A stretch of 37,472 nt of DNA from Acidimicrobiia bacterium (GTDB lineage Bacteria > Actinomycetota > Acidimicrobiia > IMCC26256 > PALSA-610). The stretch is from contig JADGOO010000237.1 of NCBI GenBank assembly GCA_017882905.1, positions 1 through 37,472 of the forward strand. The letters are read 5' to 3'. The notes beneath the pieces were generated by a model. The model searched no databases. It was given only the letters and a program-made list of their open reading frames with translations, and had not been told where the DNA came from. The translations under genes and the position numbers were made by a program. This document shows positions 364 to 29,773 of the stretch, one piece after another (position 1 is the stretch's first letter; every line of letters begins with the position of its first letter).

Positions 364-375
364 TACCGACAAGTA
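364..375. promoter_or_regulatory. Imperfect operator-like palindrome TACCGACAAGTA upstream of thiolase
   Basis: Resembles TACCGATCGGTA (7010) and TACCGATCAGTA (29741); 50 bp upstream of thiolase start. Confidence 0.45.
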
Positions 376-452
376 ACCGGAAATGTCCGGAGTCGAGCCT
401 GCGGCGATCGGAGCAGCCCGGGAGCGACGGAGGAGCGACACGGGTGCACAGT

Positions 453-481
453 GAGCTCGCCGCGCCGGACGAAGTAGGCGC
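453..481. repeat. Copy A of dispersed GC-rich intergenic repeat (diverged)
   Basis: gagctcgccgcgccggacgaagtaggcgc is about 25/29 identical to the core repeated at 31531 and 31629. Confidence 0.6.
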
Positions 482-496
482 AGGGAACAGGCGGAA

Positions 497-1357
497 CTAC
501 ATGTCGAGGCGGGTGAGCCAGTAGTCGGCGTCGAAGCGGTCGTCGCCGAGCAGGTAGCGGAACAAGCGGATCCGGTTCACGAACTCGAGGCGGTGCGTGT
601 CGGCCTCGTGCCACGGCATGGCGGTGCACAAGATCGTGGCCAGATCGTCGTCGGCCCGGGTGGTGCGCTGCCAGAAGATCGGCTGCTGCACGAAGTCGTC
701 GGGGGTGAGATCGGAGTCGTCCCAGAGGCGCACCTGGCGCACCGTGGGGTTGAGGCGCACCTTGACCATGTGGCGGGTGCGGTCGCTGCGGTTCGATCCA
801 CCACCGTGCCACATGCCGTGATGCAAGAACAGCAAGGTTCCCGCCGGACACACCACGTGCTGCTGGCCGCGGATGTTCTGGTAGCGGCCGATGGCGGCTT
901 CGCTCACGACGCGCAGATGGCTCCCCGGCAGGAACCGGGTGCCACCCATCTCGGCGGTGACGTCATGCGGGAACCACATGATCTGCACGTCGAACGCGAT
1001 CCGGGTGTCGATCGTGGAGTCCTGGTGCCAGTGCTGCGACGGCAACGGTGCATGGATGCCGAACGCCTCGCGCTCCGGCGCGCCGAGCGTGAGGTGCACG
1101 AAGTGGTGATCGACGAGCGGCTCGGGGCCGACCAGGCTCTCCATGACGTCGCGCACGTCGGAGAGCGCGAAGAGCGAGTGGAGCGCCGAGCCGGGCGGGT
1201 ACGCGCGCGACAACGGTGTGCCGGCCCGAACCTCGGGCACGCCCGGTTCGGTCACCTGCTCGAAGTACTGCTCGTTCACCGCGGCGGGGACCAGGGCAGG
1301 AAACATGAGATAGCCCTGGGCCACGAAGCGGGCCATGTCGCGCGTGGTCAGCTTCAC
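497..1357 (-). CDS. Phytanoyl-CoA dioxygenase (PhyH) family protein
   Basis: VKLTTRDMARFVAQGYLMFPALVP...QHWHQDST...PGTLLFLHHGMWHGGGSNRSDRTRHMVKVRL; His/Asp iron-ligand pattern of PhyH oxygenases. GTG start at 1357 chosen over the longer ORF. Confidence 0.85.
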   Translation of the reverse strand: MKLTTRDMARFVAQGYLMFPALVPAAVNEQYFEQVTEPGVPEVRAGTPLSRAYPPGSALHSLFALSDVRDVMESLVGPEPLVDHHFVHLTLGAPEREAFGIHAPLPSQHWHQDSTIDTRIAFDVQIMWFPHDVTAEMGGTRFLPGSHLRVVSEAAIGRYQNIRGQQHVVCPAGTLLFLHHGMWHGGGSNRSDRTRHMVKVRLNPTVRQVRLWDDSDLTPDDFVQQPIFWQRTTRADDDLATILCTAMPWHEADTHRLEFVNRIRLFRYLLGDDRFDADYWLTRLDM

Positions 1358-1647
1358 TGCGTGCCCGCCGGTACTGCGGGCGGCACCTCGACGAGCTGCT
1401 CGAACCAGAACTCGTACTTCAGGTACGACGTCTGCAGCTCGGTACCCGGGTGGTGCGGGAGCAGTGGCGATGCCTGGAACAGCCTCCACCCGTCGCGAAG
1501 TGCCGCGAGGCCGCTCGGGTAGGGCGGCTCCGACTCGTCGCCGGCCATCGACGTCCGCTCGCCGGTGCCGTCCCACTGCGACCACGCCACGACGGGCGCG
1601 TCGAGCGCCGAATCGGAGAGCCACAACACGAGCAGCTTCTGGCGCAC
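1354..1647 (-). CDS. Conserved-looking small hypothetical protein, translationally coupled to PhyH gene
   Basis: VRQKLLVLWLSDSALDAPVVAWSQWDG...GWRLFQASPLLPHHPGTELQTSYLKYEFWFEQLV; GTGA 4-bp overlap with the PhyH start. Confidence 0.7.
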   Translation of the reverse strand: MRQKLLVLWLSDSALDAPVVAWSQWDGTGERTSMAGDESEPPYPSGLAALRDGWRLFQASPLLPHHPGTELQTSYLKYEFWFEQLVEVPPAVPAGTQ

Positions 1648-1696
1648 GGTGCGCAGATTATGGACGTCTGACAGGGCCCCGGTAGTTTGCGCGCCC

Positions 1697-3049
1697 ATGC
1701 CGAGTGCAATCGAAGCCATTCGCGACGCCATCGTCAACGACGCGCCCGCCGAGGAAATCGCGGCCCTCGAGCTGCCCACCACGGCGCGCGGCGCACTCGT
1801 GCGCGAGGAAGACGTCGACATGTTCGGCGACCTGCCCGACGACGATCGCGACCCGCGCCAGGCGTTGCGCATCGAGGAGTTCCCGCTCCCGGAGCTGGCT
1901 CCCGATGAGGCCTACGTGGCCGTGATGGCGAGCGCGATCAACTTCAACACGGTGTGGTCGTCGATCTTCCGACCGCTTCCCACGTTCGGGTTCCTGAAAC
2001 GGCTCGGCCGCGAGAGCTACTGGGGCAAGCGCCACGACCTCCCGTACCACGTGCTCGGCTCCGACGCGAGTGGCGTCGTGCTGCGCGTGGGGAGCGCGGT
2101 GCGCAGCTGGAAGCCCGGTGACCGCGTCACGGTGCAGTGCAATCACGTCGACGACCAAGATCCTTCGTCGCACGACGACTCTATGATGGCGAGCAACCAA
2201 CGGATCTGGGGCTTCGAGACCAACTTCGGTGGCCTCGCCGAGATCTCGGTCGTCAAGGCCAACCAGCTCATGCCCAAGCCCGAGCATCTCTCGTGGGAAG
2301 AGGCAGCCTGCAACGGCCTGTGCAACTCCACGAGCTACCGCATGATCGTGTCGAAGAACGGCTCGCACATGCAGCAGGGCGACTCCGTGCTCGTCTGGGG
2401 TGCGAGCGGCGGCATCGGTGCGTACGCAGTGCAGTACGTGCTGAACGGTGGTGGCACGCCGGTCGGCGTGTGTTCGTCGGAGAAGCGCGCCGAGCTGTTG
2501 CGCGCGATGGGCTGCGACGCGGTGATCGACCGGCGCGCCGAAGGCTTCCGCTTCTGGAAGGACGAACACGAACAAGACCCCAAGGAGTGGCTGCGGCTCG
2601 GCAAGAAGATCCGCGAGCTCGTCGGCCGCGACGTCGACATCGTGTTCGAGCACCCCGGACGCCAGACGATGGGTGCGTCGGTGTTCGTCGCCAAGCGCGG
2701 CGGTCTCATCATCACGTGCGCGGCAACGAGCGGCTTCATGATCGAGTACGACAACCGCTACCTGTGGATGAACCTCAAGACGTTGAAAGGCTGCCACTTC
2801 GCGAACTACCGCGAGGCATGGGCGGCGAACCAGCTCGTGTGCGATGCGCGTGTGCACCCCACGCTGTCCCGCGTGTTCCCGCTCGAACAGACCGGCGAAG
2901 CCGCCTACGCGGTTCACAAGAACCTGAGCGAAGGCAAGCTCGGTGTGCTCTGCCTCGCTCCGGGCGAAGGTCTCGGCGTCCGCAACGAAGCACTGCGCGA
3001 GCAGTACCTCGATCAGATCACGCTGTTCCGCCGCTTCGAACAGGGTTAG
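1697..3049 (+). CDS. ccr: Crotonyl-CoA carboxylase/reductase
   Basis: 450 aa MDR-type protein: FNTVWSSIFRPLPTFGFLKRLGRESYWGKRHDLPYHVLGSDASGVVLRVG...GFETNFGGLAEI...VWGASGGIGAYAVQYVLNGGG...VFEHPGRQTMGASVFVAKRGGLIITCAATSG; characteristic of Ccr. Confidence 0.95.
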   Translation: MPSAIEAIRDAIVNDAPAEEIAALELPTTARGALVREEDVDMFGDLPDDDRDPRQALRIEEFPLPELAPDEAYVAVMASAINFNTVWSSIFRPLPTFGFLKRLGRESYWGKRHDLPYHVLGSDASGVVLRVGSAVRSWKPGDRVTVQCNHVDDQDPSSHDDSMMASNQRIWGFETNFGGLAEISVVKANQLMPKPEHLSWEEAACNGLCNSTSYRMIVSKNGSHMQQGDSVLVWGASGGIGAYAVQYVLNGGGTPVGVCSSEKRAELLRAMGCDAVIDRRAEGFRFWKDEHEQDPKEWLRLGKKIRELVGRDVDIVFEHPGRQTMGASVFVAKRGGLIITCAATSGFMIEYDNRYLWMNLKTLKGCHFANYREAWAANQLVCDARVHPTLSRVFPLEQTGEAAYAVHKNLSEGKLGVLCLAPGEGLGVRNEALREQYLDQITLFRRFEQG

Positions 3050-3059
3050 CTGGAGCCAC

Positions 3060-4499
3060 TCACCGATCCAGCGCGGTGAGCTGCCACGAGCCGTCGCGCA
3101 TCGCGAGCACGTAGAAGCGTCGATCGCGGAAGCGGACGCGCAGCGACTGCAGCTGTGCCGGGGTGCTGTGCGTTGCGTAGATGACCGGCGCATCGAGGTC
3201 GTAGGGATCGAGCAGGGTCGGGTGGTGATCGCCGATCCGGTCGGAGTCGTCGAGCACCACGACGCTGCCCTGCGGTGCTCGAAGCGCGGCGGCGAGCGCC
3301 GGTGCTTCGGCATCGCGCCCGTCGAGCTTGTCGCGGATCTTGCCCGGTACGAACACGATCGTTGCGGCGAGCAGCGCCACGACGGTGCCGAAGGCGATCG
3401 CGCGCCCGCGTCGCAGCACCGCGGCGATCGTCGGCGCGCCGAGGATCACGAGAGATGCCACCGCCGGTACGTAGTAGTGCGGACCGAGCCCGTCGCGCGC
3501 TCCAGGCGCGGTCAGCTTCGTGGCCCACCAGAACACGTACCCGGCGGGCCACACGACCGCGAGCCCCGCGAGCAGCCACGTGCGAGGGTCGGTGCGCCTC
3601 GACCAGACCGTGACAGCCGCGGCGGCGACGAGCAGCCAGCTGCCGAGCACCCAGGTAGGGAAGAACCAGAGGTTCTGCTTGAGTGCGAAGAAGGCGTCGC
3701 GCATTCCGTAGTGCACCGTGGCGCCGATCGCGTCGACCCGCCGATCGCCGAAGAAGAACGAGTTCGCGCCGCCGGTGGCGCTGAGCGGAAAGCGCAGGAG
3801 CCCGCCCGTCACGGCGCGGTTGATCGCGAGGGTGATCGCCGCCGGCGCGGCGCCGCCGACGCACGCCCACGCCGCGAGCCGGGCGCGTGAAGTGGCGCCG
3901 CGCGTCACCACCGCGGCATACGTGGCGATGACGACGGCGACCAGCAAGCCGTCGAAGGGTCGCAGTGCGAACGTGCAGGCGACTACGAACCCGGTAGCGG
4001 CAATGTCGCGCCGTGCCGCGGTGCGCAGTGCCCGAAGGGTGAACGCGCCCGCGAGCGCGACGAGTGCCGTGTCGAACACATACGGCAGGTATGTGGCGGA
4101 CAGCATCCACACGAACGGCGATGCCGCGAACGCGACGACCGCGACATGGCGCGCGGTGGTGTCGTCGAGCGCTTCGCGCGCGAAGAACGCGACGGCGAGG
4201 ACTGCTGCGATCGCCGTGAGCATGAGCGCGACTCGCGTGCTCCCCGCCGCGCGCGCCACGGTGAGCACCGCCGACCACGCGGTGGGGAACGGGAACACCA
4301 GACGACCGTGGGCGATCCCAGTCAGCGTGGGCTGGAACAGCGGCGCACGCTCCGCCGGAAGCGTGAGGTGTCCGTGCGCCAGCGCGTCGGCCTGCGTGAG
4401 GTACACAGCCTCGTCGTGATCACCCGATCGGTACGGGAACAGGTGATACGAGAGCACCACCGCGCCTGCGCCCGAGACGGCGGCGGTGGCGCCCGGCAC
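3060..4499 (-). CDS. Multi-pass membrane protein, glycosyltransferase (GT-C/GT39)-like
   Basis: Many hydrophobic segments; N-terminal loop HLFPYRSGDHDEAVYLTQADALAHGHLTLP typical of GT-C acidic motif proteins; C-terminal LDDSDRIGDHHPTLLDPYDLDAPVIYA. Confidence 0.7.
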   Translation of the reverse strand: MPGATAAVSGAGAVVLSYHLFPYRSGDHDEAVYLTQADALAHGHLTLPAERAPLFQPTLTGIAHGRLVFPFPTAWSAVLTVARAAGSTRVALMLTAIAAVLAVAFFAREALDDTTARHVAVVAFAASPFVWMLSATYLPYVFDTALVALAGAFTLRALRTAARRDIAATGFVVACTFALRPFDGLLVAVVIATYAAVVTRGATSRARLAAWACVGGAAPAAITLAINRAVTGGLLRFPLSATGGANSFFFGDRRVDAIGATVHYGMRDAFFALKQNLWFFPTWVLGSWLLVAAAAVTVWSRRTDPRTWLLAGLAVVWPAGYVFWWATKLTAPGARDGLGPHYYVPAVASLVILGAPTIAAVLRRGRAIAFGTVVALLAATIVFVPGKIRDKLDGRDAEAPALAAALRAPQGSVVVLDDSDRIGDHHPTLLDPYDLDAPVIYATHSTPAQLQSLRVRFRDRRFYVLAMRDGSWQLTALDR

Positions 4500-4513
4500 G
4501 AGCCACGCGCGGC

Positions 4514-5710
4514 TCAGCCGGCCGAGAACGCCACGACCTCGTTGCCGAAAGCCGTGACGACCACTCCGTTGCGCACGAGCGGCGGTCCTGCGGCGACCGT
4601 GCCCGACTTGTGCGCGTCGCCCGTTGCGATCGGCGCGCAGGTCGCCGCGCCGCAACCGCCGGCTGGGAACGTGACGAGCCGCGCACCGTTCGTCGCCACG
4701 TAGACCTTGCCGTTGGTGATTGTCGGCGCGACGGTGATCGGCGCACCTGCGTCGCCCGTCCAGAGCTGAGTGCCCGTTGCCGCGTCGAGCACGCGCACGA
4801 TGCCGTCGGCGCCACCCACGTAGATCTTGTTGTTCGACCACGCGGTGGGGCCGAGCGCTGTGGAGCTGGTGAAGGTCCACACGAGCTGTGGCGCGTTGCT
4901 GTACACGTTGACTATGCCCGTCGTGCCGTTCGACGCGATGGCGACGCGGCCGGGGCCGGCATACGACGGTCGTTGCGGGCTGGGGTTCACGGGAATGGTC
5001 GCAGTCGGCAGGCACCAGGGAGGCGCGCCGGGGATCGGTACGGGAATGCACGGCCCGGCGGAGTCGAACATGTAGATCGCGGCGTCGACGGGGACCCAGG
5101 CCCGACCGCCGGAGATCAGTGGGGTGCCGATCGCGGCCGACCCGAACGTGATCCACCAAGTCCGCCCGAATGCCAGCGAGTACAGCGGACCGACGCCGCT
5201 GCCGTACGCCCCGCCCACGAGCGCGCTGAGCTGGCCGTCGACGACGAGCTGTCCACGGAGCGTGTGGAACGCCGGCGAGTTCTCGGTGAACTGACCGTTG
5301 AGCGGGTTGTAGATCACGGAGCCCGCTCCGCCCTGCGCGTAGAGCGATGCGTCGATCGATCCCTGCACCAGTGTCGGCGCGCCGAGCGTCAGGTGGTTGC
5401 CGAACTCGTCGGGGTGCGTCACACTCCAGATCGTCGAACCCAGCGCGAGCCGCAGCGCGCGCGTCGTGTTGTCGGCCGTGACGATCACGCGGTTCTGCCA
5501 CAGCACGGGCTGGTTGACCGTGGCGCCGCTCGCGGTGGCATTGCGCCAGAGGATCGGGATGATGCCGCGTGGCACGGTGGTGGGAGCAGTCGTCGCTGGC
5601 GCGCCCGCCGAGCTGCGCGCGCCGCTCGCCGAGGGCGCCGCGATCCCGATCGCTGCGACGACGAGCGCGAGGGCAGGAACGGCCACGATTGCACGGCGGC
5701 GTATCGACAT
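4514..5710 (-). CDS. Secreted PQQ-like beta-propeller repeat protein
   Basis: Signal peptide MSIRRRAIVAVPALALVVAAIGIAAPSASGA; repeated blades such as NKIYVGGADGIVRVLDAATGTQLWTGDAGAPITVAPTITNGKVYVATN. Confidence 0.8.
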   Translation of the reverse strand: MSIRRRAIVAVPALALVVAAIGIAAPSASGARSSAGAPATTAPTTVPRGIIPILWRNATASGATVNQPVLWQNRVIVTADNTTRALRLALGSTIWSVTHPDEFGNHLTLGAPTLVQGSIDASLYAQGGAGSVIYNPLNGQFTENSPAFHTLRGQLVVDGQLSALVGGAYGSGVGPLYSLAFGRTWWITFGSAAIGTPLISGGRAWVPVDAAIYMFDSAGPCIPVPIPGAPPWCLPTATIPVNPSPQRPSYAGPGRVAIASNGTTGIVNVYSNAPQLVWTFTSSTALGPTAWSNNKIYVGGADGIVRVLDAATGTQLWTGDAGAPITVAPTITNGKVYVATNGARLVTFPAGGCGAATCAPIATGDAHKSGTVAAGPPLVRNGVVVTAFGNEVVAFSAG

Positions 5711-5791
5711 GCACCGACCGTAGGCGCCCTGCCTCGTCGGGGCAACGGTCGAACCGGTGCCCAGAGGCCGGCTTCCGTACACTCGCGCGCC

Positions 5792-6193
5792 ATGCTCCTC
5801 ACCGAGATCGACCACGTGGCCATCGCCGTCCACGACCTCGAGGCCGCCATCGCGTACTACCGCGACACGTACGGCTGCGACGTCGAGCACCGCGAAGTCG
5901 TCGAGAAGGACGGCGTGGAGGAAGCCTTGTTGAAGGTGGCCGACTCGTACATCCAGCTGCTCACGCCGATCCGCGACGACTCGCCGGTGGCCAAGTACAT
6001 GGAGCGCAAGGGCGAGGGCATCCATCACGTGGGCTACCGAGTTGACGACTGCGCCGCCGCGCTCGATGCCGTGAAGGCCCAAGGCCACAAGGTGATCGAC
6101 GAGGCGCCGAGGCCCGGCAGCCGCGGCACCACGGTGGCGTTCGTGCATCCGAAGACGGCGTTCGGCACGCTCATCGAGCTCGTGCAGGAGTAG
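5792..6193 (+). CDS. mce: Methylmalonyl-CoA/ethylmalonyl-CoA epimerase (VOC family)
   Basis: 133 aa MLLTEIDHVAIAVHDLEAAIAYYRDTYG...LLTPIRDDSPVAKYMERKGEGIHHVGYRVDD...FVHPKTAFGTLIELVQE. Confidence 0.93.
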   Translation: MLLTEIDHVAIAVHDLEAAIAYYRDTYGCDVEHREVVEKDGVEEALLKVADSYIQLLTPIRDDSPVAKYMERKGEGIHHVGYRVDDCAAALDAVKAQGHKVIDEAPRPGSRGTTVAFVHPKTAFGTLIELVQE

Positions 6194-6966
6194 TGCCCGG
6201 GTCGCCGCAGCGCGTCGTGGTGTTGTTCCACGGGGCGCCCGGTTCCCGGCTCTTCGTACCGGGTCCGGTGCCGCAGTCGGTGCGGCTCGTCACGTTCGAT
6301 CGGCCCGGCTACGGCGACGAGCCACCGCAGGCCGCTCGCACGCTCGCCGACACGGCTCGCCAGGTCGCACAGCTGCTCGACGGCCATGACGTCGAGCGCG
6401 CGGATCTGATCGGCTGGTCGGGTGGCGGGCCGTTCGCCGTCGCCGCCGCGCACGCCCTCGGCCCCGACCGGATCGAGTCGTTGGCGATCGTGTCGGCTCC
6501 TGGTCCGCTCGACGAGGTTCCGGGTGCGTGGGAGGCCCTCGGCGACTACCAGCGACCGACGGCCGAGATGTCGCGGCGCGAGCCGGAGCGCAGTGCCCGA
6601 GCGATCGCTCGCCACATGGCAGCGTTCGTGGCCGAGCCCACGAGCTTTCTCGGGAGCGGCCGGGGCCCCGACGGCCCGGTGCTGCGCGACCCCGTCGCTC
6701 GGGCGATGCTCGATGCCCAGATCGCGGCAGCCGTGCGTCAGGGCGCCGCGGGCGTGGCGGCCGATCTCATCGCCATGTGGCAGCCGTGGCCGTTCGCGCT
6801 GGCCGACCTACGGGTGGCGACGCGCGTGTTCCACGCTCGGCGCGACCGTCACAACGAGGTCGACGCGCGCACCTATGCCGAACGCATCCCCGGTGCATCG
6901 CTCACCGTCTGGGACGACTGCGGCCACCTCGGCATCATCCTGCACTGGGCCGAAGTGCTCGGCTGA
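6193..6966 (+). CDS. Alpha/beta hydrolase
   Basis: LFHGAPGSR, RPGYGDE, nucleophile elbow GWSGGG, C-terminal DCGHLGIILH; GTG start overlaps stop of mce (TAGTG). Confidence 0.9.
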   Translation: MPGSPQRVVVLFHGAPGSRLFVPGPVPQSVRLVTFDRPGYGDEPPQAARTLADTARQVAQLLDGHDVERADLIGWSGGGPFAVAAAHALGPDRIESLAIVSAPGPLDEVPGAWEALGDYQRPTAEMSRREPERSARAIARHMAAFVAEPTSFLGSGRGPDGPVLRDPVARAMLDAQIAAAVRQGAAGVAADLIAMWQPWPFALADLRVATRVFHARRDRHNEVDARTYAERIPGASLTVWDDCGHLGIILHWAEVLG

Positions 6967-7009
6967 CGAACGACGGCCGCGCACACGGTCGGCCTTCGCC
7001 CGGCCCGGC

Positions 7010-7021
7010 TACCGATCGGTA
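7010..7021. promoter_or_regulatory. Perfect 12-bp palindrome TACCGATCGGTA upstream of pccB-like gene
   Basis: TACCGATCGGTA equals its reverse complement; extends to GGNTACCGATCGGTANCC; 13 bp before the ATG at 7035. Confidence 0.6.
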
Positions 7022-7034
7022 CCCTTGGCGCACT

Positions 7035-8597
7035 ATGTCGAAGCCGCACCCGATCGAAGAGCGCATCGAGCAGCTCGCCAAGCTCAAGGAAGAGGCGCTC
7101 AGCGCAGGCTCCGCGGCCGCCGTCCAGCGCCAGCACGACCGCGGCAAGCTCACCGCCCGCGAGCGGATCGAGAAGCTCCTCGACCCCGACAGCTTCCACG
7201 AGCTCGACATGCTCGCCCGCCACCGCGCGTACGGGTTCGGCATCGAGAACAACCGGCCGCTCACCGACGGCGTGGTCACCGGCTGGGGCACGATCGACGG
7301 CCGCAAGGTCTTCCTGTTCGCCCAAGACTTCACGATCTTCGGTGGCGCGCTCGGCGAGGTGTTCGCCGAGAAGATCCACAAGGTGATGGATCTCGCCGCC
7401 AGTGTGGGCGCACCGTTCATCGGTCTGAACGACGGCGCCGGCGCCCGCATCCAAGAAGGCGTCGTCAGCCTCGCTAGCTACGGCGGGATCTTCTACCGGA
7501 ACGTGCAGGCGAGCGGCGTGGTCCCTCAGATCAGCGTGATCCTCGGACCCTGCGCGGGGGGCGCCGTCTACTCGCCCGCGATGACCGACTTCATCTTCAT
7601 GGTGAAGGACACGTCGTACATGTTCATCACCGGGCCCGACGTGGTGAAGGCCGCGACCGGCGAAGACGTGACGCAACAAGAGCTCGGCGGCGCTATCACG
7701 CACGCAACGAAATCGGGCGTGGCGAACTTCGTCGCCGACGACGAAGAGCAGTGCCTCGAGATGGTCCGCTACTTGATGTCGTTCCTACCGTCGAACAACC
7801 TCGAGGACCCGCCGTACTACGCGCCCACCGACGCACGCGACCGTTCGTGCGATGCGCTGGCCGACATCATGCCGGCGTCGGCGAACCAGGCCTACGACAT
7901 GAAGGCGGTCATCACCGACATCGTCGACGACGGCGACTTCTTCGAGGTGCACCCGCTCTGGGCCATGAACATCGTGTGTGGCTTCGCGCGTCTCGACGGC
8001 CATGTGGTCGGCATCGTGGGCAACCAGCCGAAGATGCTCGCCGGCGCGCTCGACATCGACGCGGCCGAGAAGGCCGGCCGGTTCGTGCGCACTTGCGACG
8101 CGTTCAACATCCCGCTGCTCACGTTCGTCGACGTACCGGGCTTCATCCCCGGCACCCATCAAGAGCACGGCGGCATCATCCGCCACGGCGCCAAGCTGCT
8201 GTACGCGTACTGCGAGGCCACGGTGCCGCGCGTGCAGGTGATCACGCGCAAGGGCTACGGCGGTGCGTACGTGGTGATGAACTCCAAGTCGATCGGCGCC
8301 GATCTCGCGTACGCGTGGCCGTCGGCCGAGATCGCGGTGATGGACGCGAACGGCGCGGCGAGCATCATCTTCCGGCGGGAGATCGAAGAAGCCGCCGACG
8401 CGGTGGCGCGCAAGGCCGAGCTGGTCGACGAGTACTCGGAGCGATTTGCCAACCCGTACGCCGCGGCCGAGCGCGGTTACGTCGACGACGTGATCGATCC
8501 CCGCGCCACCCGGCGGGTGTTGATCGACGCGTTCGAGGTGCTGCGCACGAAGAAGGAGAACCTCCCGGCGCGCAAGCATGGCAACGGCCCGCTCTGA
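7035..8597 (+). CDS. pccB: Acyl-CoA carboxylase (propionyl/acetyl-CoA) beta (carboxyltransferase) subunit
   Basis: 520 aa; GLNDGAGARIQEGVVSLASYGGIFYRNVQASGVVPQISVILGPCAGGAVYSPAMTDFIFMV, VDVPGFIPGTHQEHGGIIRHGAKLLYAY; classic PccB/AccD. Confidence 0.97.
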   Translation: MSKPHPIEERIEQLAKLKEEALSAGSAAAVQRQHDRGKLTARERIEKLLDPDSFHELDMLARHRAYGFGIENNRPLTDGVVTGWGTIDGRKVFLFAQDFTIFGGALGEVFAEKIHKVMDLAASVGAPFIGLNDGAGARIQEGVVSLASYGGIFYRNVQASGVVPQISVILGPCAGGAVYSPAMTDFIFMVKDTSYMFITGPDVVKAATGEDVTQQELGGAITHATKSGVANFVADDEEQCLEMVRYLMSFLPSNNLEDPPYYAPTDARDRSCDALADIMPASANQAYDMKAVITDIVDDGDFFEVHPLWAMNIVCGFARLDGHVVGIVGNQPKMLAGALDIDAAEKAGRFVRTCDAFNIPLLTFVDVPGFIPGTHQEHGGIIRHGAKLLYAYCEATVPRVQVITRKGYGGAYVVMNSKSIGADLAYAWPSAEIAVMDANGAASIIFRREIEEAADAVARKAELVDEYSERFANPYAAAERGYVDDVIDPRATRRVLIDAFEVLRTKKENLPARKHGNGPL

Positions 8598-8836
8598 TGC
8601 GCGTGTCGCCGAATCCCTCCGACGAGGAAGCCGCCGCGATCGCCGCGGCGATCACCGCCGTGCTCGAAGCCGAGCGGTGCGCGGCGCACGCCGCGGCGCT
8701 GTCGGCGGCCGCGGCACAGCGCGACGACACCTTGCACGTGTGGGTGGAGGCGTCGCGGCGCAGTGCGCAGCGCGCCGGTCTCGCCCGTGGTCCCTGGCGG
8801 CTGTCGGGCCGGCTCTCGCGGCGTTCCCGGGCGTGA
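8597..8836 (+). CDS. Small acyl-CoA carboxylase epsilon-like subunit
   Basis: 79 aa MRVSPNPSDEEAAAIAAAITAVLEAE...; position immediately after pccB with TGATG overlap; NPsdEEaAAi...L pattern of actinobacterial epsilon subunits. Confidence 0.65.
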   Translation: MRVSPNPSDEEAAAIAAAITAVLEAERCAAHAAALSAAAAQRDDTLHVWVEASRRSAQRAGLARGPWRLSGRLSRRSRA

Positions 8837-8843
8837 TCGCCGT

Positions 8844-8873
8844 GCTCACCGCGGTGGCGCGCGACCGGTGAGC
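8844..8873. terminator. Possible hairpin terminator after carboxylase genes
   Basis: GCTCACCG (8844-8851) / CGGTGAGC (8866-8873) inverted repeat; no T-tract. Confidence 0.35.
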
Positions 8874-8881
8874 CGAGCGCC

Positions 8882-9991: not shown

Positions 9992-10185
9992 CGCCGTACG
10001 GGGCCTCCTGACCAGAACCTGGCCGCCGGTTCGGAACGTTTGCGCTCCGCCCGGTGATCGTGTTCCTCGCGCGTTGTGCGTCCGTCCCTTTCCTCGCGGC
10101 GGCGAGGTTGGTTACGCTCCGTGGTCGTGGGGTTTTGGGGGACGAGGAATCGACCCCCTCGGGGAATCGAAATGAGGGAGACAGC

Positions 10186-12135: not shown

Positions 12136-12157
12136 CGAGTCGGTATCGATGTTCGTG

Positions 12158-12187
12158 CGAGGGGCGGCCCGATCGGGCCGCCCCTCG
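12158..12187. terminator. Strong bidirectional hairpin between convergent genes
   Basis: CGAGGGGCGGCCC-GATC-GGGCCGCCCCTCG perfect inverted repeat followed by ttcgttc. Confidence 0.85.
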
Positions 12188-12226
12188 TTCGTTCACGGCG
12201 CGAGTCATCGAACGCGCGCCGCGTGC

Positions 12227-16813: not shown

Positions 16814-16903
16814 TCGAGCGGACTTCACGCGGCGCGGCGACGCATTCGCGCGGCGCGTGGGGATTTGTTGATGAAGCGACTCGTGTTCACCTTGCCGACG
16901 GGT

Positions 16904-16957: not shown

Positions 16958-17000
16958 CCTGGCCCTTCTCGGTGAACTTCTGGGGCGGTACAAATGGGCC

Positions 17001-18815: not shown

Positions 18816-18880
18816 ACGGGCGCGATCGGCCGAGTCGGGGATCGCGTCGCCGCCCGGCAGCCTCGGCTATACCTGGCGCC

Positions 18881-20259: not shown

Positions 20260-20279
20260 GTCCCAGCTCGCCCGCAGGT

Positions 20280-21344: not shown

Positions 21345-21383
21345 CTCCTCCAGTGTCGGGGCGCAGCGCCCCTCCGCTGCCAT

Positions 21384-21454
21384 GACGATCGTCGGGGCCG
21401 ACTGCAGGACGATTGCAGCGCCCCGGCCCGGTGCCTGCAATCGTGCTGCAATGC
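21384..21454. promoter_or_regulatory. Operator-like repeats in divergent intergenic region
   Basis: GACGATCGTC palindrome (21384-21393); ACGATTGCAG (21409-21418) inverted against CTGCAATCGT (21435-21444); extra GCTGCAATGC (21445-21454). Confidence 0.5.
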
Positions 21455-21474
21455 ACCATGGAGATGATGCGCCC

Positions 21475-21900
21475 ATGACCACTGCGCAAGAATCCGCCAG
21501 CCCTTCCACGACCGGCTCCGACGTCGTCACCGCGCTGCTCGATGCCATCGAGGCGGGCCGCGTCCGTGGATGTCGCGCCTACGCCGCCGACGCGGAGCTC
21601 GATGCCACGGTGCCCAACTGGCGCTTCTCGCGCCGTGGCGCCGCCGCGATCCTCGCCGTGTACGAAGAGTGGTTCGCACATCCCGGGCGCTTCGAGACGT
21701 TGCGCCGCCTTCCGATCGATGGCGGCGAAGTCGTGGAGTATGTGCTCACATGGGCCGAGCAAGGGGTTCCGCACGCGGCACACCACCTGCACGTGTTCGA
21801 GCTCGACGATGATGCGAACCTCGTCGTGCGGGACACTGTGATGTGCGGCGGTCGGTGGCCGGCGTCGTTGCTGGCGGAGATGGAGGCGTCCCGTGGCTGA
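21475..21900 (+). CDS. SnoaL/NTF2-like small protein
   Basis: VVTALLDAIEAGRVRGCRAYAADAELDATVPNWRFSRRGAAAILAVYEEWF; typical SnoaL-like fold sequence pattern. Confidence 0.65.
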   Translation: MTTAQESASPSTTGSDVVTALLDAIEAGRVRGCRAYAADAELDATVPNWRFSRRGAAAILAVYEEWFAHPGRFETLRRLPIDGGEVVEYVLTWAEQGVPHAAHHLHVFELDDDANLVVRDTVMCGGRWPASLLAEMEASRG

Positions 21901-22876
21901 TGTGGTCTCGCTCGACGAGCTGTTGCGCGACGCGACCCATCGCGAGCCGCTCGAGCACAGCGACTCGAAGTCGGGTGCGGCGATGGAGCGCCTGCGCATC
22001 GGCGATGAGCGCTTCGTGCTGAAGCGACTCGACGCGCGGCACGACTGGACGATGCGTGCGGTCGGCGACGTGTACGGCTCGACGGCAGTGCTCTGGCAGC
22101 GTGGCCTGTTGCAACGGCTACCCGCCTGCATCAATCAGCCGATCATCGGCGTCGCATCCGACGGACCGGCGACAGTGCTGTTGATGCGCGACGTGGGTCG
22201 CTGGCTCGTTCCGCCCGGTGACGAGCCGATCCCCGTCGCGCACCATCTTGACTTCATCGATCACATGGCCGCGCTCCACGCCGAGTTCTGGGACGCCGGC
22301 CCGGAGATCGACGTGGTCCCGATGGTCAACCGCTACTTCGAGCTCTCACCGTGGATGGCGATCGCCGAGCGCGAGCTTGGTTCCGATCAGGTAGTGCCGC
22401 GCCTCGTTGCGCAGGGTTGGGAACAGCTCGAGCAGGTCGCGCCGAAGTCCGCGGCAGTCGTGCTTCCACTCGCGTGGGATCCGTGTCCGCTCGTCGCGGC
22501 ACTGGAGACCACGCCGACCACGTTCGTGCACGCCAACTGGAAGCTCGGGAACCTCGGCCGCGACGACGACGGACGCACTGTGCTGATCGACTGGGAGTCG
22601 CCTGGTCGGGGCTCGGCCTGCGGCGAGCTTGCGTGGTATCTGGCGATCAACTCGGCGCGCCTGCCGCTGAGCAAGGAAGCGACGATCGATGCGTACCGCC
22701 GGTCGCTCGAGGACCGCGGTATCGACACGGCTGCGTGGTGGGATCGCCAGCTCGCGCTCGCGCTGCTCGGCGGTCTCGTGTGGTTCGGCTGGGAGAAGTG
22801 CCTCGACGGCTACAACGACGAGCTCGCATGGTGGGAGCAACGGGCTATCGAGGGGGCCGCGCTGCTCGATGTGTGA
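21893..22876 (+). CDS. Aminoglycoside phosphotransferase-like protein with altered catalytic loop (HANWKLGN)
   Basis: RFVLKRLD, FVHANWKLGNLG, VLIDWESPGRGSACGELAWYL; GTG start overlaps preceding gene by 8 bp. Confidence 0.8.
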   Translation: MADVVSLDELLRDATHREPLEHSDSKSGAAMERLRIGDERFVLKRLDARHDWTMRAVGDVYGSTAVLWQRGLLQRLPACINQPIIGVASDGPATVLLMRDVGRWLVPPGDEPIPVAHHLDFIDHMAALHAEFWDAGPEIDVVPMVNRYFELSPWMAIAERELGSDQVVPRLVAQGWEQLEQVAPKSAAVVLPLAWDPCPLVAALETTPTTFVHANWKLGNLGRDDDGRTVLIDWESPGRGSACGELAWYLAINSARLPLSKEATIDAYRRSLEDRGIDTAAWWDRQLALALLGGLVWFGWEKCLDGYNDELAWWEQRAIEGAALLDV

Positions 22877-22905
22877 GCGGCGCGGCCCGATCTGATCGAG
22901 TGGGC

Positions 22906-25900
22906 TCAGCGATCGAAGCGCGTCGTCCACGCTGCGTGCAGGCTCGCGGCGTGTTCCGGCGCGGCCGCGGCCAGTGCAACCATGGAGGCGCGGGCGCGAT
23001 CGTGCCACGCATCGACGCCAGTGTCGTGCGCCACCTCGGCGATCCGCCACCATGCTTCGAGGGCCATCACATGCTCGATACGGGAGAGATCTGCTTCAAC
23101 CTCGGCCAGGTCGAAGCGCGCGCCGAGTCGCGCACCGGCGCGCACCGCGAGAAGGCGTGCGCCAACCGCGTAGCGGTTGACGCCGATCGCGTCGGCATCG
23201 GAGGCCAACGCAAGCGCGTCGTCGCGCGCGCGCTCGTCTTCGTTCGCAGCAAGCGCGCCGCGCACAGCGAGCTCACGTGCCTTCAAGCGCAGGCGCCAGG
23301 CGAAAGCGAGGTCGCCCCTATCGGCTTCTCGCGCCGCGGCGAGTCGAGCCGAGCAATCGTCGAGATCGCCGCGCGTGATTGCCGACTCGGCGAGATCGAG
23401 ATGAGCGGCGATGAACGTCTCGGCCATGTCGGCTGCTCCAACCGCGAGCGCCTGGCGGTTCGCGGCGTCGGCATCGTCGTTGGCGCCGAGCTGGCGAAGT
23501 ATCCATCCACTGAAGTTGTGCCCGCGACCGGAGTAGCGCGGCGTGTGCCGGTCGGCCACCTCGGCGTTGTACCGAGCGAACTGGTCGAGGGCGACCTGCG
23601 GCCGGCCTGCACTCGCGTGCGCATGACCGAGGAACATCAATGCGTGCAGGAGCACTGTGGTGAGCGGGGCGCCGGCGCGCCCCCGCGTCACTGGATCGAG
23701 GAGCGCGATCGCGTCGTCGACTCGGCCCTGATGCGCGCGCAGAACACCCAACCAAGCCGATGCGGCGGTGCGCTCCGGGCCGTACGCAGCGCTCGCCGCT
23801 CCGACGAGCAACTGCTCCGCGCCCGAGAGATCGCCCGCAGCGTGGCGGACGCGACCGGCCAGCACGAGACAGGACGTGCGCCGGCGCGCGTTCGTGGCGT
23901 GTGCGAGCCCGTCGTCGGCGTGCTGGCGCGCCGTCGCGAAGTCGCGCCCGTAATAGGCGCTCCATCCGGCGAGCTCGTCGGCCTCGGCGGTCGGTTCGAG
24001 CCGCGCCGCGTTCACGGCCGCGGCCCGCGCCTCGTCGAACTGTTCGAGCGCCATCAACGAGCGCGCGCGGGCAAGGTGGCCGGCCGCGGTCTCGTGCAAC
24101 GCGATCGACTGATCGGCGAGCGCGAGCGCCGCTCGGTTGTCGAAGCGCTCGCCGGCGAGCGCGGCTGCTTCGATGAGTGCCACGGCGGCCAACGCCCGAT
24201 CGCCGCCCTGGCGCGCGTGCCACGCGACGGTCAGGGGATCGCTCCGGCGGCCGGCGAGTAGGCGACCGGCCTCCCGGTGCAACAGGGCCCCGCGTGCCGC
24301 GCTCGCAGTTGAGATCAAGGCGTCGCGCACGAGAGCGTGGCGGAAGACAAAGCGCTCACCGTCGTCGATGAGCATGCCGCGCGCCGCGGCCGTCTCGAGA
24401 TGCTCGAGCACCACGATCGGCGACTCGCCGAGCACTCCGGCGAGCACCTCGAGCTCGACTCGGCTGCCGAGCACGGCGGCGGCGAGCAGCGTGGGCGCGG
24501 CCGGCCCGAGGCGCACGCATTGCGCGACGACCGCCTCGACCACGGTCGCGGGCAGGCCGTCGTCACCGGCGCGGACGAGCTCGCGGAGCAACAGTGGATT
24601 GCCACCCGAGCGTGCGAGCAACCCGTCGGCCCGCTCCGCGCCGACGAGCTCGCGCACCGTGTCGAGGCCCAGAGGCTCGACGCGATGGCGATAGGTCGCT
24701 GCGATCGAAGGGCCCTCGCCCACGCGGTGTGTGCTCACGATGACCAGCGCCGGCACGTGACGATGCAGATGAGCGAGGCATTCGATCGAGACGGGAGGGG
24801 CTCGGTGCAGGTCGTCGATCACCAACGCGGGCGCGTCGAATCGGTCGAAGACGGCAGTCAGCGCGCCGTACAACACCGCGACGCCCACGACGCTGTCGTC
24901 GAGCACTGCTTGCCGGGCGCCCGTCGCGCCCTGCTCGCGAGCCATACCGAGCAGGGGGGCGAGAACAGCACGCTCGCCGCGGAGCAGGTCGGTCGTGGCG
25001 GCGGGCCCCGAGGATCGCAAGTGCGACGCGAGAGCATCGAGCACCGGCTGGAACGGCAATGAGCGTGCCGCTTCGTCACACGTCGCGCGCAGCATCGTGG
25101 CCGGGCGGTTCGTGATGCGCTCGGCGAGCGCTGCCGCGAGCGTCGACTTGCCGATGCCCGGCTCGCCGTCGATCACGAGCCATGAGCCCGGCCGCGCCGC
25201 GCGCTCGAGCATCGCGAGGTCACCAGCCCGACCGGGTGGCGCCGCATCGGGCGCAGCCGGTGCATCGGGCGCGACCTCGTCGCGCAGGATCGCGTCGTGG
25301 AGTTCCTCGGTCGCCGGCGACGGATCGGTACCGAGGTCCTCGACCAGCCGCGCGCGCACCCTTGCGTATGCCGCGAGCGCGCTGGCGCTCTGCCCGGTGG
25401 CCACGTAGGCGCGCATCAGGATCCGCAGCGCAGCTTCGTCGTACGGGTCGGCATCGAGCGCGGCGTGGGCATGTTCGAGCGCGGGCGACGGGCGGTGCAG
25501 GGCAAGCGCCGCTTCGGCCGCAACGTGGCGTGCGGCGCCGATGCGACGCGCCACGACGTCGCGTTCGACGGTGAGCCAGTCGGCGCCTGCATGCTCGGGC
25601 AGCAGATCGCCCCGGCTGAGCGCCAGCGCGGCGGCGGCCGCGCTTGCGGCGGCCGCCGCGCTGCCCATCGCCAACCGACGCTGGGCTTCGAGCACCAGCT
25701 TGTCGAGCTCGTCGATGTCGATCGCGTCGGCCACGAGGGCGTAGGTGCCGTCGCCGGTGCGGATGGCCCCGCGCCCGATCGCGGCGCGCACGCGGCTCGC
25801 GAGCACCGCGAGATCGGCATTCGGGCGCGCGGGCAGCGCGGCGGGCCAGACCGCGTCGACGAGGGTGTCGACGCTCACGCTCTGGCCGCGTGCGATCGCG

Positions 25901-25992
25901 AGCCGCCCGAGCAGGGTGCGCGCCTTTCGGCTGCCCAGTCGTGCGCCGTCGACTCCGTCGACGGCGAGTCCTCCGAACAGGCGCACGTGCAC
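22906..25992 (-). CDS. SARP/AfsR-type regulator: winged helix + BTAD + AAA ATPase + TPR-like C-terminus
   Basis: VHVRLFGGLAVDGVDGARLGSRKARTLLGRLAIARGQSVSVDTLVDAVWP; BTAD ALRILMRAYVATGQSASALAAYARVRARLVEDLGTDPSPATEELHDAIL; P-loop GEPGIGKSTL; LVIDDLHRAP. Confidence 0.92.
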   Translation of the reverse strand: MHVRLFGGLAVDGVDGARLGSRKARTLLGRLAIARGQSVSVDTLVDAVWPAALPARPNADLAVLASRVRAAIGRGAIRTGDGTYALVADAIDIDELDKLVLEAQRRLAMGSAAAAASAAAAALALSRGDLLPEHAGADWLTVERDVVARRIGAARHVAAEAALALHRPSPALEHAHAALDADPYDEAALRILMRAYVATGQSASALAAYARVRARLVEDLGTDPSPATEELHDAILRDEVAPDAPAAPDAAPPGRAGDLAMLERAARPGSWLVIDGEPGIGKSTLAAALAERITNRPATMLRATCDEAARSLPFQPVLDALASHLRSSGPAATTDLLRGERAVLAPLLGMAREQGATGARQAVLDDSVVGVAVLYGALTAVFDRFDAPALVIDDLHRAPPVSIECLAHLHRHVPALVIVSTHRVGEGPSIAATYRHRVEPLGLDTVRELVGAERADGLLARSGGNPLLLRELVRAGDDGLPATVVEAVVAQCVRLGPAAPTLLAAAVLGSRVELEVLAGVLGESPIVVLEHLETAAARGMLIDDGERFVFRHALVRDALISTASAARGALLHREAGRLLAGRRSDPLTVAWHARQGGDRALAAVALIEAAALAGERFDNRAALALADQSIALHETAAGHLARARSLMALEQFDEARAAAVNAARLEPTAEADELAGWSAYYGRDFATARQHADDGLAHATNARRRTSCLVLAGRVRHAAGDLSGAEQLLVGAASAAYGPERTAASAWLGVLRAHQGRVDDAIALLDPVTRGRAGAPLTTVLLHALMFLGHAHASAGRPQVALDQFARYNAEVADRHTPRYSGRGHNFSGWILRQLGANDDADAANRQALAVGAADMAETFIAAHLDLAESAITRGDLDDCSARLAAAREADRGDLAFAWRLRLKARELAVRGALAANEDERARDDALALASDADAIGVNRYAVGARLLAVRAGARLGARFDLAEVEADLSRIEHVMALEAWWRIAEVAHDTGVDAWHDRARASMVALAAAAPEHAASLHAAWTTRFDR

Positions 25993-26024
25993 AGCGCGAT
26001 CATGCCCGCCCTGCAGCGCGGGCG

Positions 26025-26807
26025 TCAGGCGTCGGGTGCGACTTCGACCCGGTCGGCGCCGTGGCGGCGGGCTTCTTCGAGTGCCCGGCCCGACTGCTGC
26101 ACCAGCTCGGCGGCGCCGAGCGCGTGCGTGGGGTAACAGGCCACACCGGCCGAGATCGTGAGCGCGTCGCCCACGGGTGAGGCGAGCAGCGTGCCGCGTA
26201 CCCGCTCCGCCGCCCAGACCGCACCGGCCTCGGGTGTGTCCTCGAGGATGGCGCCGATCATCAGCTCGCCGAGCCGGCACGCACTGTCGCTCTCGCGCAG
26301 CGTGCGGCGCACCACGTCGCCGACCACGGCGAGGGCCTGGGCCCGCGCCATCTCGTCGTCGGCGTTCGGCATCGAGTCGATCTCGAAGATGACGACCGAG
26401 ATCGGCCGCAGCGAACGGCGGGCGGCGGCAACCTGTTGCTGGACGAGCACCGCGAAGTAGCGCTCGTCGAACAGCCCGGTGGCCGAATCGAAGGCGTGCT
26501 CCGCCTTCTCCTTGGGGGTCTGCGGCGCCCTGGCCCGCTGTACCTCCTCGTCGAGCGTCTCCGACAGTGCGTCGAGCTCGCGGTTGAGCCGGGTGATGTC
26601 GTGCTCGGCCGAAGCCCGTCCGGCCTCGGCCCGGTGCAGACGGGCGGCCAGGGCCGCGGCCGCCATGCCTGCGACCACGCCGGCCGCGCCCGCGAGGACG
26701 CCCCATTCCGCCTGAGACGTCACTACGGACACCACTCCGGCCGCGAGCGCGGTCATCGCCGCGCCCGTCGCCACCAACACTTGTCGATCGTGCATCGCGG
26801 GTCTCAT
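26025..26807 (-). CDS. Membrane protein with degenerate GGDEF domain
   Basis: N-terminal TM segments; FDSATGLFDERYFAVLVQQQVAAARRSLRPISVVIFEID...ACRLGELMIGAILEDT...LTISAGVACYP; GGDEF replaced by GELMI. ATGA overlap with upstream mutase stop. Confidence 0.8.
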   Translation of the reverse strand: MRPAMHDRQVLVATGAAMTALAAGVVSVVTSQAEWGVLAGAAGVVAGMAAAALAARLHRAEAGRASAEHDITRLNRELDALSETLDEEVQRARAPQTPKEKAEHAFDSATGLFDERYFAVLVQQQVAAARRSLRPISVVIFEIDSMPNADDEMARAQALAVVGDVVRRTLRESDSACRLGELMIGAILEDTPEAGAVWAAERVRGTLLASPVGDALTISAGVACYPTHALGAAELVQQSGRALEEARRHGADRVEVAPDA

Positions 26808-28792
26808 CGGCCGGAGCGGGCTCGGGCCTGAGCGGAGACATGCGCCAGGGCCAGGTCAGCGACATCCGCCATGATCTGGCTGATCCGGTAGTCCTTGGGT
26901 GTGTAGACCCTCGCCACCCCTGCCGCGAGCAGTCGGTCCTGGTCAATGGGCGGAATGATCCCGCCGACCACCACCGGCACATCGACGCCGTCGGCCCGCA
27001 GCAGCCGGATCGTCTCGGGCACCAGATCGAGGTGTGAACCGGAGAGGATCGACAGGCCCACGATGTCGACGTCTTCATCGCGGGCCGCCGCGGCGATCTG
27101 GGCGGGCGTGAGCCGGATGCCCTGGTAGACGACCTCCATGCCCGCATCGCGGGCCGCCACGGCGATCTGCTCGGCGCCGTTGCTGTGGCCGTCGAGGCCG
27201 GGCTTGCCGACCAGCATGCGCAGCGGCGTGCCCCGTTCCACGGCGGCGGCGCGCACCCGGTCGCGCACCTGCTCGAGCTCGGCGCCGACCGCAGCGTGCA
27301 CGAGGCCCACGCCCGTGGGCGCCCGGAACTCGCCGAACACCTCGCGGAGCGTGCCGGCCCACTCGCCGACGGTGCCGCCGGCCTTGGCGAACGCGATCGT
27401 GGCCGGCACGAGGTTGTGCTCGGTGGCCGCCACCCGGCGCACCTCGTCGAGCGCGGCGGCCGCGGCCGATTCGTCGCGGTCGGCCCGCCATCGCTCGATG
27501 GCCTCGATCTGTTCGCGTTCGGCGGCCGGATCGACCACGAGGATGGAGTTCTCACCGTCGAGCCCGGCCGTGAGCGGCGATGCGGCCGTCTCGGTGAACG
27601 TGTTGACGCCCACGATCGTGGTCTCGCCACTCTCGATGCGGCGCACGCGCTCCGCGTTGGACTGCACGAGCGCGCCCTTCAGCTCGTCGATGCACGCGAA
27701 CGCGCCCCCGGCGTTGATGATCCGGTCGAGCTCGGCTTGGGCCGCGTCGGCGAGCTCGCGCGTCTTGGCCTCGATGACCTTGGAGCCCTCGAAGATGTCG
27801 CCGTACTCGAGCAGGTCGGTCTCGAACGCGAGCACTTGTTGGATGCGCAACGACCATTGCTGGTCCCAGGGGCGCGGCAGACCCAGTGCTTCATTCCACG
27901 CCGGGAGCTGCACCGCGCGCGCCCGCGCGTCCTTGGACAGCGTCACGCCGAGTGCCTCGAGCACGATGCGCGGCACGTTGTTCTCGGGCTGCGCCTCGGT
28001 GAGCCCGAGTGAGTTCACCTGCACGCCGTAGCGGAAGCGACGCGCTTTGTCGTCGGTGACGCCGTAGCGCTCCTTTCCGAGCCGATCCCACAGGTCGGTG
28101 AACGCACGCATCTTGCACGTCTCTTCCACGAAGCGGATGCCCGCGTTCACGAAGAAGGAGATGCGTTCGAACACGGCGGGCATGTCGTCGCTCGTGACGC
28201 GTCCGGTCGCGATCACCGCGTCGAGCACGTCGACTGCGGTCGCGAGCGAGAACGCCAGCTCTTGCACCGGGGTCGCGCCCGCTTCTTGCAGGTGGTACGA
28301 GCACACGTTGATCGGGTTCCACTTCGGAACGTGCGCGACGGTGTGCGTGATCACGTCGACGGTGAGGCGCAACGACGGCTTCGGCGGGAAGATGAAGGTG
28401 CCTCGCGACAGGTACTCCTTCATGATGTCGTTCTGCGTGGTGCCCGCGAGCTGCTTGGCGTCGACGCCGCGCTCGTCGGCCAGCGCGAGATAGAGCGCCA
28501 TCAACCACATCGCGGTCGCGTTGATCGTCATCGAGGTGTTCATGTCCTCGATGGGGATCGCGTCGAAGAGCGCACGCATTTCGGCGAGCGTCGGCACGGG
28601 AACACCGACCTTGCCCACCTCGCCGCGCGCCATCGCGTCGTCGGGGTCGTAGCCGGTCTGCGTGGGCAGGTCGAACGCCACCGACAGGCCGGTCTGGCCT
28701 TTGGCGAGGTTCGTGCGGTAGAGCTCGTTGGACGCCCGGGCCGAAGAGTGCCCCGAGTAGGTCCGCATCACCCAGGGGTTCGTTCTCGGCAT
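26804..28792 (-). CDS. ecm: Ethylmalonyl-CoA mutase (B12-dependent, MCM superfamily, MeaA-like)
   Basis: PWVMRTYSGHSSARASNELYRTNLAKGQTGLSVAFDLPTQTGYDPDDAMARGEVGKVGVPV...KWNPINVCSYHLQEAGATPVQELAF; C-terminal B12 motif GLDGHSNGAEQIA. Confidence 0.92.
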   Translation of the reverse strand: MPRTNPWVMRTYSGHSSARASNELYRTNLAKGQTGLSVAFDLPTQTGYDPDDAMARGEVGKVGVPVPTLAEMRALFDAIPIEDMNTSMTINATAMWLMALYLALADERGVDAKQLAGTTQNDIMKEYLSRGTFIFPPKPSLRLTVDVITHTVAHVPKWNPINVCSYHLQEAGATPVQELAFSLATAVDVLDAVIATGRVTSDDMPAVFERISFFVNAGIRFVEETCKMRAFTDLWDRLGKERYGVTDDKARRFRYGVQVNSLGLTEAQPENNVPRIVLEALGVTLSKDARARAVQLPAWNEALGLPRPWDQQWSLRIQQVLAFETDLLEYGDIFEGSKVIEAKTRELADAAQAELDRIINAGGAFACIDELKGALVQSNAERVRRIESGETTIVGVNTFTETAASPLTAGLDGENSILVVDPAAEREQIEAIERWRADRDESAAAAALDEVRRVAATEHNLVPATIAFAKAGGTVGEWAGTLREVFGEFRAPTGVGLVHAAVGAELEQVRDRVRAAAVERGTPLRMLVGKPGLDGHSNGAEQIAVAARDAGMEVVYQGIRLTPAQIAAAARDEDVDIVGLSILSGSHLDLVPETIRLLRADGVDVPVVVGGIIPPIDQDRLLAAGVARVYTPKDYRISQIMADVADLALAHVSAQARARSGR

Positions 28793-28820
28793 CGTTGGCT
28801 CCCCGGTCGTGCCGGAAAGG

Positions 28821-29678
28821 CTACTTCCGGTGGTAGTCGTAGAACCCGGCGCCGGTCTTGCGACCGAGACGCTCGGCGCTCACCATGCGCCGCAAGAGCG
28901 GTGCCGGCGCGTAGTTCGGGTCCTTGAACTCTTCGTAGAGCGCTTCGAGGATGGCGAGGCTCGTGTCGAGCCCCACCAGGTCGAGCAGCTCGAGCGGCCC
29001 CATCGGGAAGTTGCAGCCGCCCTTCATGGCGGTGTCGATGTCGTCACGTGTGGCGACGCCACCGTCGAGGAGGCGCACCGCGTTGTTGAGGTACGGGAAC
29101 AGCAACGCGTTCACGATGAAGCCGGCCTGGTCCTTCACCTGCACCGGCTGCTTCGAGCACGCGGCGGCGAACTCCGTGGCCGCCACGATGGTCTCGTCGC
29201 TCGTGGTGATGGCCCGCACGATCTCGACCAGCGCCATCGCCGGCGCCGGGTTGAAGAAGTGCACGCCGCACACGCGGTCGGGGCGGCCCGTGTGCATCGC
29301 CATCTCGACGACCGGCAGCGTGGACGTGTTCGTGGCGAGGATCGCGCCGTCCTTGCACACCCGGTCGAGCTCGGTGAACAGGTGCGTCTTGGCGCCGAGG
29401 TCTTCGACGATCGACTCGAGCACGAGGTCGCAGTCGCTCAGCTCGCCGAGATCGGAGACGGCTCGCACCCGGCCGAGCACGGCCTGGCGTTCGGCGTCTT
29501 CGAGCTTGCCGCGGTCGACCTGCTTGGCGAGCGACTTGTCGAGCCCCGCGACCATGGCGTCGGCGGTCGACTTCGCACGGCTGCGCAGCACCACCTCGAA
29601 GCCGGCCTTGGCCGCCACCTCGGCGACGCCCGAACCCATGATGCCCGAGCCCACGATGCCCACGCGCTTGATCGTCAC
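28821..29678 (-). CDS. 3-hydroxybutyryl-CoA / 3-hydroxyacyl-CoA dehydrogenase
   Basis: VTIKRVGIVGSGIMGSGVAEVAAKAGFEVVLRSR...LATNTSTLPVVEMA...VCGVHFFNPAPAMALVEIV...DQAGFIVNALLFPYLNNAVRLLDGG. Confidence 0.95.
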   Translation of the reverse strand: MTIKRVGIVGSGIMGSGVAEVAAKAGFEVVLRSRAKSTADAMVAGLDKSLAKQVDRGKLEDAERQAVLGRVRAVSDLGELSDCDLVLESIVEDLGAKTHLFTELDRVCKDGAILATNTSTLPVVEMAMHTGRPDRVCGVHFFNPAPAMALVEIVRAITTSDETIVAATEFAAACSKQPVQVKDQAGFIVNALLFPYLNNAVRLLDGGVATRDDIDTAMKGGCNFPMGPLELLDLVGLDTSLAILEALYEEFKDPNYAPAPLLRRMVSAERLGRKTGAGFYDYHRK

Positions 29679-29740
29679 GAGCGTTGCCTCCTGGCCGGCG
29701 CACGCGCCGGGTGCCGTTCGACCGGAAAGTCCGAGAATGC

Positions 29741-29752
29741 TACCGATCAGTA
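29741..29752. promoter_or_regulatory. Operator-like palindrome TACCGATCAGTA upstream of hbd
   Basis: Embedded in GCTACCGATCAGTAGC (29739-29754), one-base variant of the site at 7010. Confidence 0.6.
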
Positions 29753-29773
29753 GCCACGAAGGGCCAACTGGCC

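Follow-up and report, generated by a model that had tools for sequence, protein, structure and literature searches.

The window, by which we mean the whole analysed stretch of 37,472 nucleotides, comes from an Acidimicrobiia genome and covers a region of the ethylmalonyl-CoA pathway. It encodes a crotonyl-CoA carboxylase/reductase (Ccr), a thiolase, a PccB-like carboxylase subunit, a 3-hydroxybutyryl-CoA dehydrogenase (3HBDH) and a B12-dependent acyl-CoA mutase (Table 1), which together are the signature of this pathway. The first-pass annotation of this DNA had placed the thiolase, carboxylase and dehydrogenase genes on one acyl-CoA route, but had not recognised the pathway as such. With 506 bits, the mutase scores below the cut-off of the methylmalonyl-CoA mutase equivalog (876 bits), and from the gene context we infer that it is the ethylmalonyl-CoA mutase (Ecm).

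Table 1. Genes and predicted operator sites in the window, and related features elsewhere in the same genome (contig handle before the colon).
Feature	Position	Strand	Remarks
Acetyl-CoA C-acetyltransferase (thiolase), start; cut by contig end	3..314	-	Pfam Thiolase_N, E 2e-32; NCBIfam acetyl-CoA C-acetyltransferase matches
Operator 1 (predicted)	364..375	-	Gene-oriented GGTTACTTGTCGGTAGGAAT; upstream of thiolase
Crotonyl-CoA carboxylase/reductase (Ccr)	1699..3049	+	TIGR01751, 550 bits (cut-off 379); start codon inferred
Operator 2 (predicted)	7010..7021	.	Perfect palindrome TACCGATCGGTA
PccB-like acyl-CoA carboxylase carboxyltransferase subunit	7035..8597	+	Pfam Carboxyl_trans, E 4e-199
B12-dependent acyl-CoA mutase, in line behind 3HBDH	26804..28792	-	Pfam MM_CoA_mutase and B12-binding
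3-Hydroxybutyryl-CoA dehydrogenase (3HBDH)	28821..29678	-	Pfam 3HCDH_N/3HCDH; NCBIfam NF005875, 368 bits (cut-off 319)
Operator 3 (predicted)	29741..29752	-	Gene-oriented GGCTACTGATCGGTAGCATT
Predicted site at acyl-CoA dehydrogenase / divergent thiolase-like gene	C195:752
Predicted site at acyl-CoA synthetase gene	C101:2216
FasR-like TetR gene, outside the window	C250:26379-26990		PF00440 (TetR_N helix-turn-helix) match, 70 bits

Three 16-mers, CTACCGACAAGTAACC (363-378), CTACCGATCGGTACCC (7009-7024) and CTACCGATCAGTAGCC (29740-29755), had initially been reported upstream of the thiolase, pccB and 3HBDH genes. All of them are located as claimed, and the distances to the genes hold as well. Operator 1, whose distance from the thiolase ATG at 314 (minus strand) is about 50 bp, is a degenerate copy with AGTA as its second half. 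Operator 2 ends 13 bp ahead of the pccB ATG at 7035 and overlaps a putative -10 element (TACCCT); the pccB mRNA is probably leaderless. Between operator 3 and the 3HBDH GTG downstream of it at 29678 (minus strand), a start with an AGGAGG Shine-Dalgarno sequence, the distance is 62 bp. Operator 3 also overlaps a putative -10 element (TAGCAT). A search of the window for TACY-N4-RGTA returned exactly the positions 364, 7010 and 29741 and no further match, compared to a mean of 0.10 matches per shuffle, and never more than 1, in 300 dinucleotide shuffles. The three sites are more than chance, and the observation is confirmed. A 70-bp unit that is perfectly duplicated in tandem (29774-29913) adjoins operator 3 on its upstream side, between the divergent genes for 3HBDH and a peptidase S51.

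We also searched the whole 4.36-Mb genome. The sequence TACCGAYNRGTA occurs in five places, three of them inside the window. The related form TACYGRYCRGTA is found at five sites, all in the 5' regions of acyl-CoA-type genes: pccB, 3HBDH-mutase, an acyl-CoA dehydrogenase gene with a divergent thiolase-like gene, an acyl-CoA synthetase gene, and a branched-chain keto-acid dehydrogenase gene with a divergent SDR gene. Other one-mismatch matches lie mostly within ORFs. A search that included a TANNNT hexamer in register (TACYNNNCRGTANNNT) gave four matches genome-wide, again all before genes of the acyl-CoA type. These genome-wide statistics are pattern searches against reversed-motif controls. 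Such a control, which contains ATG/CAT, serves only as a rough yardstick, and the short form gives more control than motif matches. Based on the sequence, the predicted regulon of this genome comprises the three window sites together with those on contigs C195 and C101 (Table 1).

Upstream regions of orthologs were compared for all three window genes. Conservation is class-wide for 3HBDH and extends to five family members for the thiolase, where the thiolase/ccr intergenic region carries a counterpart site. For the pccB site, on the other hand, none of the 30 orthologs examined showed conservation. They have only a leaderless -10 element in common, and among the genomes examined, this site is private to the genome studied here. 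The ccr promoter of this genome has kept GGTAGTTT, with the TACC arm missing. A phytanoyl-CoA-dioxygenase-like gene (497-1624) separates thiolase and ccr in the window; in several relatives, the two genes are directly divergent and have one operator common to both.

In the 3HBDH promoter, TACY-N4-GGTA is kept in nearly all family members. Across the class, 80 3HBDH loci contain TACC-N4-GGTA 41 times, nearly always once per locus and in the 3HBDH promoter, where it overlaps a putative -10 element, while spacers of 2, 3, 5 and 6 occur 2-4 times in total in the same loci. Among non-redundant 3HBDH promoters, 21 of 61 carry the spacer-4 element, and other spacers between 0 and 12 are present in none or one. 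Some lineages have a 20-bp perfect palindrome at this position (TAGTTACCAATTGGTAACTA), and a continuous series of sites connects the strict form (GTTACCGATCGGTAACC, TAGTTACCAATTGGTAACTA) with that of the window. The consensus first put forward, C-TACCGA-N2-RGTA-N-CC, was too narrow: the conserved element is TACC-N4-GGTA, often GTTACC-N4-GGTAAC. We dropped the narrow consensus because TACYGRYCRGTA alone mixes several TetR systems. The 3HBDH loci L230, L268, L273, L277, L278, L290 and L292 derive from metagenome records titled Bifidobacterium breve, but are Acidimicrobiia-like; the records are probably mislabelled.

These data also bear on another explanation, according to which the sites are nothing but core-promoter context, that is, a GGTA-flanked -10 element plus a chance TACC upstream. 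GGTA followed by a TANNNT hexamer indeed recurs in the leaderless promoters of this clade, including those of pccB orthologs that lack the TACC arm. But the TACC arm is restricted to spacer 4, with next to no occurrences at other spacers, and this class-wide specificity argues strongly against mere -10 context. Moreover, strict sites recur ahead of a regulator gene (see below). We consider this explanation very improbable.

The strict motif GTTACC-N4-GGTAAC far exceeds its reversed control in 198 Acidimicrobiia genomes. At least 48 of the 68 strict sites fetched adjoin a gene for an acyl-CoA dehydrogenase, thiolase, 3HBDH, mutase or TetR protein. Some of the remaining sites lie beside glycerol-3-phosphate dehydrogenase-like, lipase-like or Fe-S oxidoreductase genes; a few precede genes without any obvious link (sigma factor, glycosyltransferase, TrkA). 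Outside the class, the motif (L415-L433) is located ahead of genes for thiolase, carboxylase, enoyl-CoA hydratase, ETF and 4Fe-4S oxidoreductase, so that the operator may predate the class.

The first-pass annotation had seen no candidate regulator gene in the window, and indeed no TetR gene is encoded there. The same is true for the pathway cluster regions of the family, and the 80 class-wide 3HBDH loci contain just two TetR genes, both without sites. The TetR genes located beside strict sites form one orthologous family with 43-75% identity and an invariant GVTKPVLYQHF segment. The genome studied here encodes one clear ortholog outside the window (242 bits, compared to 93 bits for the next TetR protein; Table 1), and its AlphaFold model (pLDDT 85) matches all-helical TetR structures. 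A PccB paralog is encoded a few kb from this gene, likewise in several relatives. By sequence, the nearest solved protein is FasR (6o6p, E 5e-28, with the G176 ortholog as query), and a fold search with the AlphaFold model also returned FasR as the best hit (6o6o, probability 1.00, 32% identity). Scores against the NCBIfam FasR equivalog NF053731 (119.5, 114.9 and 149.7 bits) are far under the cut-off of 330 bits; by this standard, the proteins are relatives of FasR, not FasR itself.

This FasR-like TetR family is present in 94 of the 198 Acidimicrobiia genomes, single-copy in all but one. It is encoded in 40 of the 43 genomes with the strict motif, compared to 54 of the 155 motif-free genomes (Fisher p 2e-12, with shared ancestry uncorrected and with a TetR model for which part of the source genomes had been selected by the motif). 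Two of the three strict-motif genomes without the regulator are incomplete, and some of the 54 genomes that encode it without a strict motif carry the looser TACC-N4-GGTA at 3HBDH. The spacer-4 operator is present in 12 of the 30 promoters of FasR-like TetR genes that were read, and other spacers from 0 to 9 in none. Within the TetR family, an operator in the regulator's own promoter is frequent, though not a universal feature. At locus L404, the operator is followed in line by an acyl-CoA dehydrogenase gene and the FasR-like TetR gene; at L413, each of these two genes has its own site.

Several other palindromes share the core, but not the flanks, of these sites. The 18-bp palindrome TTGTACYGRYCRGTACAA is located at branched-chain keto-acid dehydrogenase E1 and SDR genes (L012:1501, corresponding to G000 C211:27984; L047; L022) and likely represents a separate regulon; in the genome studied here, about 4 kb separate it from a TetR gene. 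CTACCTACYGGTNGGTAGG-like palindromes precede fatty-acid desaturase genes (L153, L039, L151, L164, L079, L018 and, in our genome, C2:3388), in some genomes between the desaturase gene and a divergent TetR gene. Two tandem copies of TACCATATGGTA lie directly upstream of another, unrelated TetR gene (G000 C16:47600-47627; L399); apart from weak matches, this was the only operator found before the TetR genes of this genome. The same core with different flanks thus marks other TetR systems, and the bare 12-bp core is insufficient to assign a site.

It is therefore conceivable that the FasR-like protein acts on strict GTTACC-N4-GGTAAC only, and that a different TetR protein, or overlapping paralogous ones, occupy the window sites. 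This genome has 53 TetR-domain matches, at least three other site types have the same core, and the promoter of the FasR-like gene of this genome lacks the operator, as do those read from members of its order. Yet the 3HBDH sites intergrade between the strict and the window form, and the C195 site precedes the same acyl-CoA dehydrogenase family as strict sites elsewhere, so that we regard a separate regulator of the window sites as unlikely. Judging from the sites, their spacing specificity and position, the genes that they precede, their occurrence in several genomes immediately before the TetR gene itself and the co-occurrence of motif and regulator, the three sites are probably operators of one FasR-related TetR protein, through which Acidimicrobiia would control both acyl-CoA catabolism and the ethylmalonyl-CoA pathway. 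The comparative evidence thereby supports the TetR-controlled acyl-CoA regulon suggested at the outset, with corrections regarding the pccB site and the other TetR systems.

For the mechanism, we propose that a dimer of the FasR-like TetR protein would bind TACC-N4-GGTA, in many lineages extended to GTTACC-N4-GGTAAC. TetR proteins bind similar cores, as described for TTHB023/PfmR (PMC7022988). Since the 3' half-site overlaps the putative -10 element, binding would most likely block RNA polymerase and hence repress transcription. The releasing ligand would then be a CoA thioester, by analogy one with a long acyl chain, and the genes for acyl-CoA dehydrogenase, thiolase, 3HBDH-mutase and related functions would be switched on together. 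A variant that overlaps with this reading is that the FasR-like protein activates its targets, like FasR at fas-acpS. FasR (Rv3208) of M. tuberculosis, the characterised protein to which it is most closely related, is an activator, and long acyl-CoAs release it (PMC7382501); repression can therefore not be assumed. But a position over the putative -10 element is typical of repression, and the targets are catabolic genes, not the fas operon. Activation thus seems rather unlikely to us.

The proposed regulon is new, but its type is known. Acidimicrobiia are known mostly from metagenomes, and our literature searches did not find any described regulator of their carbon metabolism; searches for the literal motif returned nothing relevant. 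The analysis names a candidate operator, a candidate regulator and a set of targets for acyl-CoA and acetyl-CoA assimilation throughout the class, all of which can be tested. Only tentatively do we propose a wider view: Acidimicrobiia, and perhaps other actinobacterial lineages as well, could use a relative of the mycobacterial regulator of fatty-acid synthesis as a master repressor of fatty-acid degradation together with the ethylmalonyl-CoA pathway, acting through one spacing-specific operator that recurs class-wide. The system also offers a case for studying how target genes change within a family of lipid regulators.

FasR activates fas-acpS via three inverted repeats and binds long acyl-CoA in a tunnel, with release from the DNA. 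The acyl-CoA theme is common to FasR and the Acidimicrobiia TetR proteins. The targets differ: FasR acts on the fas-acpS synthesis operon, whereas the genes found here serve degradation and acetyl-CoA assimilation, with predicted operators over putative -10 elements, and no fas gene was seen among the Acidimicrobiia targets examined. The DNA co-crystallised with FasR contains AACTCGCCAGTA, one mismatch from TACTCGCCAGTA (PMC7382501), a likeness that, coming from one oligonucleotide, is only suggestive. PfmR/TTHB023 and SbtR of Thermus thermophilus are TetR proteins that recognise palindromic cores near ACYGRYCRGT at lipid genes (PMC7022988), but the flanks of their consensus differ from those of the Acidimicrobiia operator, and PfmR structures rank under FasR in the fold search. 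The mycobacterial BkaR (Rv2506) is an autoregulated TetR repressor encoded beside acyl-CoA genes. Its operator, GTTA-N-T-N4-A-N-TAAC (PMC3920632), does not agree with the conserved TACC-N4-GGTA, and we rejected BkaR as the regulator; its structural similarity to our TetR model is also lower than that of FasR. Finally, the ethylmalonyl-CoA pathway itself is under the control of a TetR protein in Methylobacterium extorquens: CcrR, as cited in PMC10370305, is an activator of this pathway, and it is alphaproteobacterial.
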